Below are positions 26,168 through 64,000 of a stretch of 64,000 nt of DNA, in pieces. Origin of the DNA: Pseudomonas sp. MYb327 (GTDB lineage: Bacteria > Pseudomonadota > Gammaproteobacteria > Pseudomonadales > Pseudomonadaceae). Each line of letters opens with the position of its first letter. The first letter of the stretch is position 1. Location of the stretch: positions 5,603,001 to 5,667,000 of the forward strand of contig NZ_CP159258.1 in NCBI RefSeq assembly GCF_040438925.1. Reading direction: 5' to 3'. The notes under the pieces are model-generated. The model did no database searches. It worked only from the letters and a program-made list of their open reading frames with translations, and was not told where the DNA came from. Position numbers and translations under genes: made by a program.

Positions 26168-27387
26168 TGAGCGACATTATCCGCCGCGACCCGCGCGCCG
26201 AATGGATCGCCCGCAACCGTCTGCATCCGCTGCACGCGGCCATGCAACCGGCGCAGCACAGCTGGATGGGACCGAATGGCGTCATCCGCAAGAACCCCCA
26301 TGGGATTGGTTTTATCGGTCCCGACGGCATCAAGCGCATTGACCGCAGTGGCGCTCAACAGGGTGGGGCGACCAAACGCTCGGCCGCCGTTGAAGTGCAA
26401 TTGCCGCTGCATCAAGTGCCTACACCGGCCTTCTACATCAGCGTCGTTCCGGACATGGTCGGTGGCCGCTTGAGCAGCCACGATCGCGACCTGTTGGGCC
26501 TGGCTCATCAATTGGCCGGCAACGACGGAGCGGTGTTGGCCGTGGTCTTCGGTGAACACAAAGAGAGCGCCTTCGCGACCGCTGGTGTCGACCGCTTGCT
26601 GGTGCTGGAAGGCGACGAGTTCAGTGGTTATGCACCGGAACAACGGGTACAGGGCCTGCGGGCTGTGGATAACCAGTTCAGTCCGCGTCATTGGTTGCTG
26701 CCGGACAGCCGCACCGGTGGCGGCGAACTCGGTCGACGCTTTGCCGCAGCGCTGGGCGAGCGCCCGGCAACGCGGGTCTGGCAGGTCAAGGATCAGGAAT
26801 GCATCGGCCGTGCGGGTGCCGGTTTGCAAGACCTTGCACGTCCGGTTGCACGCTTGATTCTGGCCGCCGTCGAATGTGCCGAACCAGTCAGCGAAACCCG
26901 ACACGAAGCCTTGCCCGTGGAGTTATCCACAACCGTCGCGCGCAGTTTGTCGCGCATCGAAGATCTGGGCGCGGTGGCGGTGGACCCGGCGGCGATTCCG
27001 ATGGCCGAAGCCGAGTTCATTTTTTCCGGCGGCAACGGGGTCAAGGATTGGGATTTGTTCCACCAGACCGCTGCAGCGTTGGGCGCCACCGAAGGCGCGT
27101 CCCGTGTGGCAGTGGACGATGGCTTCATGGCCCGCGACCGTCAGGTCGGCGCGTCCGGCACCTGGGTCACCGCACGGGTCTATGTTGCGGTGGGGATTTC
27201 CGGGGCGATCCAGCACCTGCAAGGCATCGGTGCCTGCGACAAGGTGGTGGCGATCAACCTTGATCCTGGCTGCGACATGATCAAACGGGCCGACCTGTCG
27301 GTGATTGGCGAAAGCGCCGAGGTTCTTCAAGCCTTGATCGATGCGGTGGCGGCTTACCGCAACGACGCCAAGCGTGATGCGGCTTAA
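26167..27387 (+). CDS. etfA: Electron transfer flavoprotein, alpha subunit (FixB-like)
   Basis: A 406-residue ETF alpha. The C-terminal FAD-binding domain is clear (VDDGFMARDRQVGASGTWV, then VAVGISGAIQHLQGI and NLDPGCDMIKRADL). The N-terminus is longer than in housekeeping EtfA (about 310), with about 70 extra residues that include a basic segment MSDIIRRDPRAEWIARN. It overlaps dgcB by one base and precedes etfB by 15 bp, so it probably takes electrons from the methylamine dehydrogenases of this locus rather than from fatty-acid oxidation. Two perfect DnaA-box 9-mers fall inside the gene. Confidence 0.92.
   Translation: MSDIIRRDPRAEWIARNRLHPLHAAMQPAQHSWMGPNGVIRKNPHGIGFIGPDGIKRIDRSGAQQGGATKRSAAVEVQLPLHQVPTPAFYISVVPDMVGGRLSSHDRDLLGLAHQLAGNDGAVLAVVFGEHKESAFATAGVDRLLVLEGDEFSGYAPEQRVQGLRAVDNQFSPRHWLLPDSRTGGGELGRRFAAALGERPATRVWQVKDQECIGRAGAGLQDLARPVARLILAAVECAEPVSETRHEALPVELSTTVARSLSRIEDLGAVAVDPAAIPMAEAEFIFSGGNGVKDWDLFHQTAAALGATEGASRVAVDDGFMARDRQVGASGTWVTARVYVAVGISGAIQHLQGIGACDKVVAINLDPGCDMIKRADLSVIGESAEVLQALIDAVAAYRNDAKRDAA
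26664..26672 (-). other. Perfect DnaA box within etfA
   Basis: TGTGGATAA on the plus strand equals TTATCCACA on the minus strand. It encodes the segment VDN in etfA, so it may be incidental. See the DnaA-box cluster at 30.2-30.8 kb. Confidence 0.6.
26933..26941 (+). other. Perfect DnaA box within etfA (opposite orientation)
   Basis: TTATCCACA on the plus strand encodes part of ELSTT. It is the second box within 270 bp. Confidence 0.6.
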
Positions 27388-28864: not shown

Positions 28865-28993
28865 GGCCTGATCACCTCTCGCGACATGCCCTTGGCTGCT
28901 ACATTTTTACTGTGCGCTGTTGAGGGTGCAGCATCCGGTATTCCTGGTTTCAGCGCTTGATCATAAAACCTGGTTTTTATGAATGGGCAGGCT

Positions 28994-30199
28994 ATGAAGC
29001 CTTTAAAGCTGTCGCTACTGCTTCTTGTCGGGACGTTGCTCGCATCGACGGGAATGCTGGCCGCACCTCGCTCGAGCAAGTCTGAGCTGCGCCCGGACAT
29101 TGATCCGAACTTCGATCAGTGGCTGGTCTCGGAGCAAGGGGTGAATGCTTCCCTGGGGCAAATGCGTCAGCGCTGCGACAGGGTTTTGGATGCCGAGAAA
29201 AACCTTAATTGTTCAGTGTCCGTCATTGCCCGCATGTTCGAGGACAAAGCCGCCAATCAGTTGCCCGATTACTTTCTTGCAATCAAGCGTAAGCACGCCC
29301 GGGCCATAGAGGCTAACCAAGAGCTGAAAGTGCTGTTCTCAATGTTCGGCGACCAGTCTCTTTCGACACTCAGAGAGACTGGCGATTTCTCGGTCAAAAA
29401 GATCCAGCGGCGCGAAGTGCTCGTCATCCATCCCTACGCCACTGATTTTTTCATTGCCGAAGAGGTCCTTCCGTTCATTGATGTCAGCGCAGCCAATGGT
29501 CATTCGGCGCGCTTCGTCCTCGACACCGGCGCCCCGCAAACCCGGGTGAATTACGAAACGGCGAAGCTGATGGGGATCAAGTTGCTGACCGACTCCCACT
29601 ACGCCTACAGCACGTTCTATGGCGAGAAAGAGTTGACCGCACGCCTGGGGATTCTTGATTCCATCCAGATAGGAGGGAGCGAGTTCCGGAATGTGCTGGT
29701 GTTTGTCAGTGATCGGGACAACCTGCTGGGGCTCGATCTGATCAGCAAGTTGGGGCGGCTGAAAATTACCCGCAAAACCCTGGTGTTCAATCCCGCGCCT
29801 GCAACCCGATGTGATTCACCGATTGCCTACACCCGCATGGACATCAACCAACGGCTGACGATCGCTGTACGGCTCGATAACAGGGCCACGCTGGCGATTG
29901 TGGATACCGGGAACGTTGATTACCTGACATCCGCGTCACCGGGCGATCAAGTCAACGTTGTCACAGGCAACTCACCGATCAACATGGCGCAGCAGCGCTA
30001 CCAAACCTTCAAGGGCGTTTTGAGTCTGCCGGGTGGAACCACGGCGATCACCTACAAGTTTTATCCTCGCTTCACCATTCCGCCGTCGTGGGTAATGGGC
30101 CGGTACGTGCCTTCAATCCTGCTGGGGTGGAGCGCGTTCGAGGACTTTGAGTTGGAGCTGGATATCGATGCCGGAAAATCCTGCTTGAATAAGGTTTGA
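28994..30199 (+). CDS. Periplasmic retropepsin-like aspartic protease with two DTG motifs
   Basis: A 401-residue exported protein. The signal peptide begins MKPLKLSLLLLVGTLLAST and ends near LAA/PRS. Two aspartyl protease-type motifs are visible: FVLDTGAPQT with Asp177 and AIVDTGNVDY with Asp304, each followed by hydrophobic strands and a psi-loop-like ending (NLLGLDLISKLGR, SILLGWSAFEDFELE). Retroviral-type proteases carry one motif per chain and dimerise; two motifs in one chain suggest an internal pseudo-dimer, if both are active. The start at 28994 has GGCAGG just upstream, the ATG at 28979 has none. No operon partner. Substrate unknown. Confidence 0.8.
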   Translation: MKPLKLSLLLLVGTLLASTGMLAAPRSSKSELRPDIDPNFDQWLVSEQGVNASLGQMRQRCDRVLDAEKNLNCSVSVIARMFEDKAANQLPDYFLAIKRKHARAIEANQELKVLFSMFGDQSLSTLRETGDFSVKKIQRREVLVIHPYATDFFIAEEVLPFIDVSAANGHSARFVLDTGAPQTRVNYETAKLMGIKLLTDSHYAYSTFYGEKELTARLGILDSIQIGGSEFRNVLVFVSDRDNLLGLDLISKLGRLKITRKTLVFNPAPATRCDSPIAYTRMDINQRLTIAVRLDNRATLAIVDTGNVDYLTSASPGDQVNVVTGNSPINMAQQRYQTFKGVLSLPGGTTAITYKFYPRFTIPPSWVMGRYVPSILLGWSAFEDFELELDIDAGKSCLNKV

Positions 30200-30221: not shown

Positions 30222-30790
30222 TGTTTACCCACAATCCCTGTTAGCGCTTCTGTGGATAACATGTTCGCCCCTCGCTGCGACCCATACAGACCGCGGCCTG
30301 TAAGCCTCAGATCAAAAAACAACCAACATAAGTTGCGGTTTTCCAACGCTTTTTCCTGGAGATACGAGGGTTCGCAAACCTATAGTTGCCCCCAATCTCT
30401 GTTGGCGCTTCTGTGGATAAGATGTTCGCTTACTGCTACAGGCCTTATAAAACGTGGCTTTCGAGCGCCTGGCTAAAAAATGATCAAAGTTGTGTTTTTA
30501 ACCGTCAAACCCTCCGCAAACCCAGAAAATTCGCGGCTTTCACCGGTTTTCCACAGAGGTTCTAAAGTTGTACCCAAAGTCTGTTGGCGCTTCTGTGGAT
30601 AAGGTGTTCGCGATCCTCTGCAGGCCACGTAAATCGTGAGTTGTACGGGGTTGATCAATAAATGATCAGGTGCTGATGAAAACCAGGGTTATGGATAAGT
30701 CACGGATTTTCTTCGGTTTATGTCGAGAAAGTTTCCAGGGTTTCCACAGTTGTCCCCATTAGCTGTGGGTGGAGGTGTGGATAACTTGTT
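30222..30790. repeat. Tandem degenerate repeats (161-182 bp) with perfect DnaA boxes
   Basis: Perfect TGTGGATAA 9-mers start at 30251, 30412, 30594 and 30776, all on the same strand, with spacings of 161, 182 and 182 bp. Three units share CTGTT(A/G)GCGCTTC before the box and TGTTCGC after it. Each unit also has an A-rich segment with ATCAA about 60-80 bp downstream of the box, and a TTTCCAC or GTTG-CCCC element before the next. One-mismatch boxes occur at 30547 (TTTTCCACA) and 30690 (TATGGATAA). It resembles a DnaA-titration site; no dnaA, dnaN or rpmH gene is near, so it is unlikely to be the chromosomal origin. Confidence 0.8.
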
Positions 30791-30902: not shown

Positions 30903-30994
30903 TATCGCGAGCAAGCTTGCTCCTACAATGGGTCTGAGGTGTACACACATTTCGTGAACGACCCGGACCTGTAGGAGCAAGCTTGCTCGCGATG
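30903..30994. repeat. Outward-facing REP pair next to gbcA
   Basis: ATCGCGAGCAAGCTTGCTCC and GTAGGAGCAAGCTTGCTCGC arms are separated by about 45 bp. It ends 10 bp before the gbcA stop codon. Confidence 0.88.
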
Positions 30995-31003
30995 CTTTTG
31001 ACC

Positions 31004-32299
31004 TTAGCCTTGAACCGGAACGCCTTTAAGGTAAGGCGCAGGCTCAGCTCCGAGGTTGTTCAATAGGCGCTCGCTGTACCAGTCCACAAAGTTCACCACA
31101 CCAAACTCATAGGTCTTGGAGTAAGGCCCAGGCTGGTACGCAGTGGAGTTGATGCCGCGCTGGTTCTCTTCGGCCAGGCGGCGGTCCTGGTCGTTGGTGG
31201 CGTCCCAGACCTGGCGCATGCGTTCCACGTCGTAGTCCACGCCTTCGACCGCGTCCTTGTGGACGATCCACTTGGTAGTGACCATGGTTTCCTGAGCGCT
31301 GATCGGCCACACGGTGAACACGATGATGTGGTCGCCCATGCAGTGGTTCCACGAGTGCGGCAGGTGCAGGATGCGCATCGACCCCAGGTCCGGGTTCTTG
31401 ATGCGGCCCATGAGCTTGGCGCAGCCCTGTTTGCCGTCCAGGGTCATCGACACGGTGCCCTTGAGCAGCGGCATGCGCACGATGCGGTTACGCAGACCGA
31501 AACTGGCGTGGGCGTAAGGGATTTTCTCGGCTTCCCAGGCTGCGGCAGAGGCGGCGACGTGGTCTTTGAACGCCTGGTCGGCGCGCGGGTCGGTGACGTC
31601 GTCCCATTCCAGCAGGGTTTTCAACAGTTCCGGGTGCGACGCGTTGCAGTGGTAGCACTCGCGGTTGTTTTCCAGCACCAGTTTCCAGTTGGCCTTTTCC
31701 ATCAAGGTGGTGGTAATCGCCACCTTGGTGTTTTCCATGTCGTACGGTTCCATGTAATGGCTGAGCGTCGACAGGAAATCATCGATCGCCGGCGGGTTCT
31801 CCGCCAGGCTGATGAAGATGTAGCCGCCGGCGGTCTTCACGTTCACCGGTTTGAGGCCGTACTGCTTCATGTCGAAGTCGGCGCCCATTTCGGTGCCGGC
31901 GAACAGCAGGCGACCGTCGAGTTCGTAGGTCCACTGGTGGTAGTGGCAGACCAGTTTGGCGACCTTGCCTTTTTCGCTGGTGCACAGGCGCGAGCCACGG
32001 TGCCGGCAGACGTTGTGGAATGCATGCACCACGCCTTCGGCGCCACGGATCACGATGATCGGGTTCTTGCCCACTTGCAGCGTCAGGTAGTTGCCCTTGG
32101 TCGGGATCTCGCAGGTCATTCCGGCGATCAACCACTCTTTCTGAAAGATTTCCTGCATGTCGATATCAAACAGGCGCTCGTCCGAGTAAAACGGCTGCGG
32201 CAGCGAGAACGTGCGCTCGCGCTCTTGCAGCATCTGCGCGGTGGCCTTGCGTGCGGGTTCCAGCGGATCGCCCAGGCTCAGGGTAGTAGTGACGTCCAT
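31004..32299 (-). CDS. gbcA: Glycine betaine monooxygenase, Rieske oxygenase subunit
   Basis: A 431-residue ring-hydroxylating-type oxygenase that removes one methyl of glycine betaine as formaldehyde, giving dimethylglycine. The Rieske [2Fe-2S] ligands are Cys98 and His100 (NVCRHRG) and Cys118 and His121 (VCHYHQW). The mononuclear iron segment NRECYHCNASHPEL gives His217 and His222, with Glu214 at the usual acidic bridging position. It works with the reductase GbcB, which is divergent across a 281-bp gap. Length matches the characterised Pseudomonas protein. Confidence 0.97.
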   Translation of the reverse strand: MDVTTTLSLGDPLEPARKATAQMLQERERTFSLPQPFYSDERLFDIDMQEIFQKEWLIAGMTCEIPTKGNYLTLQVGKNPIIVIRGAEGVVHAFHNVCRHRGSRLCTSEKGKVAKLVCHYHQWTYELDGRLLFAGTEMGADFDMKQYGLKPVNVKTAGGYIFISLAENPPAIDDFLSTLSHYMEPYDMENTKVAITTTLMEKANWKLVLENNRECYHCNASHPELLKTLLEWDDVTDPRADQAFKDHVAASAAAWEAEKIPYAHASFGLRNRIVRMPLLKGTVSMTLDGKQGCAKLMGRIKNPDLGSMRILHLPHSWNHCMGDHIIVFTVWPISAQETMVTTKWIVHKDAVEGVDYDVERMRQVWDATNDQDRRLAEENQRGINSTAYQPGPYSKTYEFGVVNFVDWYSERLLNNLGAEPAPYLKGVPVQG

Positions 32300-63137: not shown

Positions 63138-63352
63138 GCAGGTTATCCAAGTTAAACGTGCACCTGCCTGTGGATAACCTGTAGAGACAGCCCGCCAGGC
63201 CACGCCGGCCGGGGCTTTTTCAAATCTGATCAAAAAACCAGCAGTTTCAGTCACTTGCGCACAAACGCCGGGGATCACGCTGTGGATAACCTTGGGAAGG
63301 AACGCTGTAGGCCACGTTAAACGTGGCCTACAGAGGTTTGTACGTTTTTTGA
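63138..63352. repeat. Second DnaA-box repeat tract, gcvR-rarD gap
   Basis: Two perfect DnaA boxes (TGTGGATAA at 63169 and 63281) lie 112 bp apart. Near-boxes include TTATCCAAG at 63143. After the first box, CAGGCCACGCCGGCC and TGATCAAAAAA recur as in the 30.2-30.8 kb array. No coding potential. Confidence 0.75.
63305..63333. terminator. Long perfect hairpin between gcvR and rarD
   Basis: CTGTAGGCCACGT / ACGTGGCCTACAG, 13-bp arms with loop TAA. A T-run (TTTTTT) comes only after about 12 more bases, so termination of gcvR or rarD is possible but atypical. A similar half-conserved CAGGCCACG element follows DnaA boxes elsewhere. Confidence 0.6.
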
Positions 63353-64000
63353 TCAGCTGCGGCGGCGCAGGCTAAGCCACGCATCGACGCTGTAAACCGC
63401 CAGGCCGGCCCAGATGAAAATGAACGTCACCAGTGTGCTGGAGGACAAGTGTTCGCCAAACAGCAACACGGCTTGCAACAGCACCAACGTCGGCGCCAGG
63501 TATTGAAGAAACCCTAACGTGGTGTAGGGCAAATGCCGTGCAGCGGCGTTGAAACACACCAGCGGCACGAGAGTCACCGGGCCGGCGGCCACCAGCCACC
63601 AGGCTTCGGACGTCGTCCAGAATTCAGGTTGAGCGCTTGCTGCCGTCTGATTGAACAGCAACCAGGCGACGGCAATAGGCACCAGCATCCAGGTTTCCAC
63701 CACCAACCCGGGCAGTGCCTTGACTGGTGCCTGCTTGCGAATCAGGCCGTAGAAACCAAAGGACAGTGCCAGCACCAACGACACCCACGGCAGGCTACCG
63801 ACTTGCCACACCTGTTGCGCGACACCAACCGCCGCCAGACCCACCGCAATCCACTGCATGCGCCGCAGTCGCTCGCCGAGGATAAGCATACCCAGCAGCA
63901 CGTTGACCAACGGGTTGATGTAGTACCCGAGGCTGGCTTCCAGCATGCGTCCGTTGTTCACCGACCACACATAGGTCAGCCAGTTGGCCGCAATCAGCGT
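63353..64000 (-). CDS. rarD: RarD-type EamA permease, C-terminal part (cut by window edge)
   Basis: At least 215 residues of a drug/metabolite-type membrane permease (chloramphenicol-sensitive RarD family). The frame is open to the window edge. Features: NWLTYVWSVNNGRMLEASLGYYINPLVNVLLGMLI, the family hallmark, followed by GERLRRMQWIAVGLAAVGV and further hydrophobic segments to SVDAWLSLRRRS. The complete protein should be about 295 residues, so the first 80 or so lie outside. Substrate unknown. It is convergent with gcvR across the DnaA-box tract. Confidence 0.92.
   Translation of the reverse strand, partial: TLIAANWLTYVWSVNNGRMLEASLGYYINPLVNVLLGMLILGERLRRMQWIAVGLAAVGVAQQVWQVGSLPWVSLVLALSFGFYGLIRKQAPVKALPGLVVETWMLVPIAVAWLLFNQTAASAQPEFWTTSEAWWLVAAGPVTLVPLVCFNAAARHLPYTTLGFLQYLAPTLVLLQAVLLFGEHLSSSTLVTFIFIWAGLAVYSVDAWLSLRRRS

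Follow-up and report, generated by a model that had tools for sequence, protein, structure and literature searches.

A conserved array of DnaA boxes and Fis-type sites in Pseudomonas: a candidate datA-like locus

The window analysed here is a stretch of 64,000 nt (chromosomal positions 5603001–5667000) from Pseudomonas sp. MYb327, whose chromosome is 6,148,998 bp long. In this window a non-coding tract lies between two convergent genes, an aspartyl-protease-like gene (28979–30199) and gbcA (31004–32299), etfA and etfB being located upstream of them and gbcB following gbcA. The tract carries four perfect copies of the DnaA box TTATCCACA, all on the minus strand and 161, 182 and 182 bp apart (Table 1), exactly as the preliminary description had reported. 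The units that contain the boxes are related to each other (65%–73% over 107 nt). The flanking repeat described earlier, CTGTT[AG]GCGCTTC before the box and TGTTCGC after it, is good in units 1–3 and degenerate in unit 4. In all four units a gap of 2 bp separates the strong box from the TGTT after it, and at −26 there is a weak inverted site that resembles the box. An inverted pair of GCGAGCAAGCTTGCTCCTACA-type repeats adjoins the array at positions 30905–30998; it resembles Pseudomonas REP elements.

Table 1. Location of the features in the window.
Feature	Positions	Strand	Sequence and remarks
DnaA box 1	30251..30259	-	TTATCCACA, exact match
DnaA box 2	30412..30420	-	+161 from box 1; relatives: 150 or 161 class
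DnaA box 3	30594..30602	-	+182 from box 2; 181–183 in 103/103 unique arrays
DnaA box 4	30776..30784	-	+182 from box 3; relatives: 182, 172 or 161 class
Fis-type site 1	30310..30324	.	GATCAAAAAACAACC; core GNNYRNNWNNYRNNC at +50 after box 1, 101/103
Fis-type site 2	30471..30485	.	GGCTAAAAAATGATC; +50 after box 2, 101/103
Fis-type site 3	30653..30667	.	GATCAATAAATGATC; +50 after box 3, 103/103
Weak inverted DnaA-box-like site before box 1	30225..30233	+	TTACCCACA, 26 bp before box 1; conserved column block
Weak inverted DnaA-box-like site before box 2	30386..30394	+	TTGCCCCCA; conserved columns
Weak inverted DnaA-box-like site before box 3	30568..30576	+	TTGTACCCA; conserved columns
Weak inverted DnaA-box-like site before box 4	30750..30758	+	TTGTCCCCA; repeat family D2 and alignment
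Weak box in spacer 2	30547..30555	+	TTTTCCACA; nearly invariant in alignment of 76
Strongly conserved block, spacer 3	30695..30713	.	ATAAGTCACGGATTTTCTT; most columns at least 90% in 76 sequences
DnaA box inside etfA	26664..26672	-	9-mer kept in 98% of 65 etfA; top 1.2% of the gene's 9-mers
DnaA box inside etfA	26923..26931	+	9-mer kept in 100% of 65 etfA; top 0.3%
Second small site, two units	63166..63358	-	boxes 63169 and 63281, 112 bp apart; R1 E-values 1.1e-5 and 1.2e-7

The window contains TTATCCACA 11 times, as compared with 0.13 times on average in 100 dinucleotide-shuffled versions. Seven boxes beyond the array had thus been missed (26664, 26923, 27873, 33047, 53253, 63169 and 63281). 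The whole genome has 138 copies versus 14 of the reversed pattern, i.e. an approximately tenfold over-representation, and these are concentrated towards oriC: 33 are within 40 kb and 120 within 1.25 Mb of it, and 14 are in the chromosome half farthest from it. The densest 600-bp stretches in the 6.15-Mb genome are the array and oriC, with 4 boxes each, and the next separate one (at 4476579) has 3. Thus in the genome-wide density scan that had been proposed, the array ties with oriC for the top cluster. Box positions were also jittered (sd 50 kb) with random strands, the zone within 40 kb of oriC being left out, and a cluster at least as array-like (4 same-strand boxes in 534 bp) appeared in 3 of 5000 runs.

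The gradient of boxes towards oriC is in favour of passive titration, in which the array would be only a dense spot in the general origin-proximal enrichment and its A-rich sites would serve nucleoid packaging. PMC12371093 describes, for coli, conditions favourable for titration. However, passive titration requires neither spacing classes in helical turns nor a Fis-type site fixed at +50, and both are conserved, as shown below; we consider this explanation unlikely.

The dnaA gene (Bac_DnaA, E-value = 2.5e-76) is at chromosomal positions 5156770–5157252, which is 476 kb from the array, and it has a separate 4-box cluster of its own adjoining it. This rules out an oriC or a plasmid origin at the array, in agreement with the first reading of the locus as something other than a normal oriC.

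A strict three-box pattern was found once each in 116 of 249 genomes of the genus (that of MYb327 included) and is absent from 133; the reversed control gave 0. Among the named genomes tested, 31 of 34 have the pattern, in one copy each. The arrays were selected via the sequence of box 1, and its invariance in the alignments is a selection effect that is not counted as evidence; the count of the strict pattern is the real test. Of 597 confirmed gbcA loci in a capped list, the best 80, all of them named, were used; 48 of these display array boxes in the flank, 47 with at least three boxes and L069 with two. The other 32 comprise 30 genomes with one strict array elsewhere and two (L047 and L053) with none by the strict pattern. 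Of two genomes added, L045 passes the strict pattern and L077 (three flank boxes, one of four lost) fails it. With a model of the repeat unit (termed R1), a unit at E < 1e-13 was detected in 61 of the 103 genus genomes of the family draw; 31 more gave values between 1e-13 and 1e-6, and 11 gave weaker matches or none. The array is therefore common but not universal in the genus, as about 40% of genus genomes are without a strong unit.

The repeat character of the units might suggest a decaying intergenic REP-like repeat in which the boxes are accidental, as the units are mutually related and related ones are found elsewhere in the genome. However, a BLAST search yielded the array itself as the sole strong match in its genome (next E-value = 0.02). 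This, with one strict array per genome where it is present, rules out a multi-copy repeat, the possibility for which a check had been suggested. In addition, in the alignment of arrays the columns of the boxes and Fis-type sites stay constant while the remaining spacer sequence varies. A decaying repeat is disfavoured and appears very improbable.

The spacing of the boxes, which had been put forward as a point to check in relatives, is conserved. From 161 loci, 126 arrays were obtained, of which 111 are unique; 8 of these have three boxes in the chain and 103 have four, the chain search having admitted spacings of 140–200 bp only. In the 103, spacer 1 is 149–151 bp (39 arrays) or 158–161 bp (64), spacer 2 is of constant length (Table 1), and spacer 3 is 181–183 bp (81), 171–172 bp (20) or 160–161 bp (2). 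The classes are thus near 150, 161, 172 and 182 bp, in steps of 10–11 bp or about one helical turn. Since the variants differ by approximately whole turns, a phased nucleoprotein assembly is indicated. It should be noted that the arrays share their spacing classes by descent. A quick tree of 68 gbcA rows has 2 changes in the spacer 3 class and at least 8 in the spacer 1 class. The latter count may be inflated, the tree being that of one highly conserved gene, and two of the spacer 1 states are single off-class arrays (158 and 159).

The spacers carry GNNYRNNWNNYRNNC, which we take to be a Fis-type core motif. It starts exactly 50 bp after the box in nearly all of the 103 arrays (Table 1), whereas in letter-shuffled controls any core within 25 positions is found in 3.7%–5.0% of stretches. 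Nearly all substitutions at the two YR steps of the core retain Y and R. The “ATCAA segment” of the preliminary description is a real element and corresponds to this site, but it is absent at that offset in unit 4, i.e. box 4 is without a core at +50. In the MYb327 genome the strict core is at +50 in 9 of the 135 boxes that have flanks, 3 of them within the array and 6 at other loci, as against a per-offset mean of 0.28 for boxes outside the array; one of the non-array boxes, 4338413, has a core with a GC-rich centre. In 20 stretches chosen by unit-model matches the core is at +50 in 34 of 59 perfect boxes (in none in L267, L270 and L273), a figure that is biased because the unit model includes the Fis-type site.

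The IHF consensus, WATCAANNNNTTR, is nearly absent (present in 0, 2 and 1 of 103 spacers), and on this consensus IHF was rejected as the bending protein. A fis-like gene is present in the genome (HTH_8, E-value = 9.6e-13), downstream of an ORF that by eye is dusB-like. The 15-bp Fis consensus of E. coli/Salmonella, given as GNtYAaWWWtTRaNC in PMC2816674, is matched at 12 or more positions by 85, 101 and 103 of the 103 sites in spacers 1–3 (scored on the better strand, with N positions included). Among the six verified Fis sites of P. putida lapA, as given in PMC5612765, Fis-A7 has a GATCAAAAA half in common, not the full core.

Fis is assigned by its consensus, and the TGATCA-rich sites could instead bind another regulator; the locus would then have a role in transcription or in the organisation of the chromosome, and the DnaA boxes would be cofactors. 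The block in spacer 3, conserved and matched to no motif, would fit this. However, the tract is between convergent genes, there is neither an Rfam match nor a covarying RNA structure, and the sites agree with the enteric consensus to the extent given above; this alternative is quite improbable.

Other parts of the tract were also inspected. The block at 30695–30713, ATAAGTCACGGnTTTTCTT, has a conservation about equal to that of the functional sites, and no recognised motif was matched. A structured RNA was rejected: there is no Rfam match at gathering thresholds, and 0 of 7 predicted pairs in the unit alignment changed on both sides. The dyad between the box and the Fis-type site is likewise without covariation. 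The alignment used for the model retains the first unit of L078, which is a chance or degraded unit.

The two boxes within etfA (Table 1) are highly conserved, the mean third-position identity of etfA being 68% in 65 sequences, and its coding sequence is apparently constrained for DnaA boxes. The box in etfB (27873) is in the top 3% of 9-mers only, and that in gbcB (33047) is not unusually conserved, 11.7% of 9-mers being at least as conserved.

The location of the array was compared in 51 genomes (50 and that of MYb327), leaving out G101 and G030, in which dnaA and the array are on different contigs. The array is 325–648 kb from dnaA in 47 of the 49 genomes with both on one contig (median 530 kb); the exceptions are G160 (662 kb) and G029 (1,116 kb). 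Relative to the contig the distance is 5.7%–9.4% (median 8.25%, 41 genomes), and it is 7.2%, 8.7%, 10.0% and 17.0% in four complete-scale additions. Of the 48 array loci of five kb, 47 include etfB and/or gbcA, and L204 has neither within its 5 kb. This synteny also holds at five arrays downstream of dnaA, and the array 1.1 Mb from dnaA still adjoins etfB. Because the position follows the etfB/gbcA synteny, it is weakened as an independent sign of selection. The array is oriented with the fork in 49 of 49 genomes, to which no weight is given because symmetric inversions keep this orientation. In the complete genome L059 (DTU12.3) the array follows gbcA at a distance of about 7.4 kb. The gbcA–etfB stretch in L044–L123 appears to be a slot for variable genes: the array differs by kilobases among species in its distance from gbcA and in that from the etf boxes.

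Units related to those of the array are present at other loci. R1 gives 10 matches in the MYb327 genome: four in the array and others at 4476551, 4476753, 4590710, 4591086, 5666253 and 5935553, with a weaker partner of 5666253 at 5666166. The second small site of the window (Table 1) has the strict Fis core at +50 for box 63281 only, and its unit 2 displays a dyad, CTGTAGGCCACG-TTAAA-CGTGGCCTACAG, between the box and the Fis-type site. Weaker units are present in other genera of the family. By model matches there are seven units in G389 (g12; L254, C1:6006500–6009500), at 6007455–6008546 and 49 kb from dnaA, of which three have perfect boxes, and nine on one contig in G361 (g12; L255, C63:37000–40200); these are larger arrays than that of MYb327. 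In genome G409 (g9) the array adjoins etfB and gbcA. The best unit of two other g9 genomes is 560 kb (G428) and 516 kb (G305) from dnaA; a third, G352, has two best units that are tied, one 550 kb to one side of dnaA and the other 531 kb to the other side. In G428 the best unit adjoins ORFs that by eye resemble ntrC and a tRNA methyltransferase. A match at E ≤ 1e-6 was obtained in 18 of the 194 genomes of the order draw; 11 of these are from other families, with one or two matches each.

The original observation of the four boxes is confirmed, and it is stronger than had been recognised. As for function, we lean towards reading the array as a dedicated non-coding station for the assembly and sequestration of DnaA, which would be datA-like with a predicted Fis in place of IHF. 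Agreement with the consensus sequences and conservation suggest that DnaA and Fis bind to the tract. It would form three bays, each bounded by two same-orientation high-affinity boxes 150–182 bp apart and with one Fis-type site inside. Fis may bend each bay, so that DnaA at successive boxes on a fixed helical face could join head to tail as an oligomer, with assistance from the weak site that adjoins the strong box (TGTT, 2-bp gap); the TGTT weak sites would be in line with head-to-tail DnaA pairs. The array is usually about 0.5 Mb from oriC and would therefore be replicated early after each initiation. The additional copy could then take up DnaA and perhaps promote ATP hydrolysis, which would oppose premature re-initiation as datA does, and the dependence on Fis would couple the array to growth rate. 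DnaA oligomers on the array and a negative effect on initiation are thus both predicted, the direction of the effect being the weakest step.

Several points are against this datA-like reading: the use of Fis by DARS2, the patchy presence in the genus, a position bound to synteny, the lack of a core in unit 4, a Fis-type site that is nearer the other box, and the descent of the spacing classes. Once-per-cycle control of initiation outside the enterics is largely untested, and the array is a specific, removable, single-copy candidate for it in Pseudomonas, with exact predictions of protein sites and a natural series of spacing variants.

The array was compared with E. coli datA by motif inspection. 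PMC5742627 places datA 0.47 Mb from oriC. Two boxes of datA lie 162 bp apart in the same orientation, and a single IHF match is located between them. Both loci are non-coding, are about 0.5 Mb from oriC, and have same-orientation high-affinity boxes (162 bp apart in datA, 150–182 bp in the array) with one site for a bending protein between them. By eye, a TGTT-starting weak 9-mer is 3 bp after the strong box in datA and 2 bp after it in the array. The differences are that a Fis-type site replaces the IHF site between the essential boxes and is placed nearer the opposite box, that the array has three bays and datA one, and that the surrounding genes are different.

The main rival is a DARS-like reactivation, in which ADP-DnaA would assemble on the units and bound Fis would lead to release of ADP, giving more ATP-DnaA before initiation. 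E. coli DARS2, whose effect is opposite to that of datA, requires Fis sites besides IHF sites according to PMC4245941, and the array also combines DnaA boxes with Fis-type sites. By eye, DARS1 and DARS2 resemble the array in a strong box followed after 2–3 bp by a TG-starting weak site (TGT- or TGG-), and the weak inverted site at −26 resembles TTTTTCACA of DARS2 at −24. However, in DARS1 and DARS2 an inverted TTATCC site is present at −14 relative to the strong box, and by eye the window units have no inverted site there; the arrangement of the DARS core (boxes I–III with box I inverted; the core is described in PMC5742627) is thus absent. The array is also almost without the IHF consensus that accompanies Fis sites in DARS2, and it is usually nearer to oriC than DARS2, which is about 0.95 Mb away (DARS2 region 2.97 Mb, oriC 3.92 Mb). 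A DARS-like role is the less likely reading, and the datA-like one is preferred.

The relative positions of datA and DARS are conserved in 59 E. coli genomes (PMC4585315), and clusters of DnaA boxes in Bacillus subtilis and Streptomyces coelicolor, described as analogous to datA, repress untimely initiation (PMC5742627). The likeness of the array to the latter, chromosomal box clusters as well, is drawn from their description alone. We know of no periodic Fis-type sites in the B. subtilis and S. coelicolor clusters. In the titles and abstract starts of the open-access literature searched, no datA- or DARS-like locus of Pseudomonas was found, the “datA” queries being partly swamped by “data”.

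The earlier proposal of a datA/DARS-like DnaA-regulatory locus away from oriC is thus partly supported: its core idea survives the computational tests, but it lacked the second component, the Fis-type sites, and neither the IHF feature of datA nor the geometry of the DARS core is present. Because one defining feature of each class is missing, the array is a member of neither datA nor DARS, and it most likely works like datA. It may represent, and this is offered tentatively as a possibility that falls short of being probable, a third class of chromosomal elements that regulate DnaA, namely a multi-bay DnaA–Fis array with helical phasing that would have the role of datA without IHF in much of Pseudomonas. 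The unit of such an element, consisting of a weak inverted box, a strong box and a Fis-type site at +50, would be used in varying copy number at a few mostly origin-proximal loci of the Pseudomonadaceae, and the level of Fis would set the tightness of the block to re-initiation.
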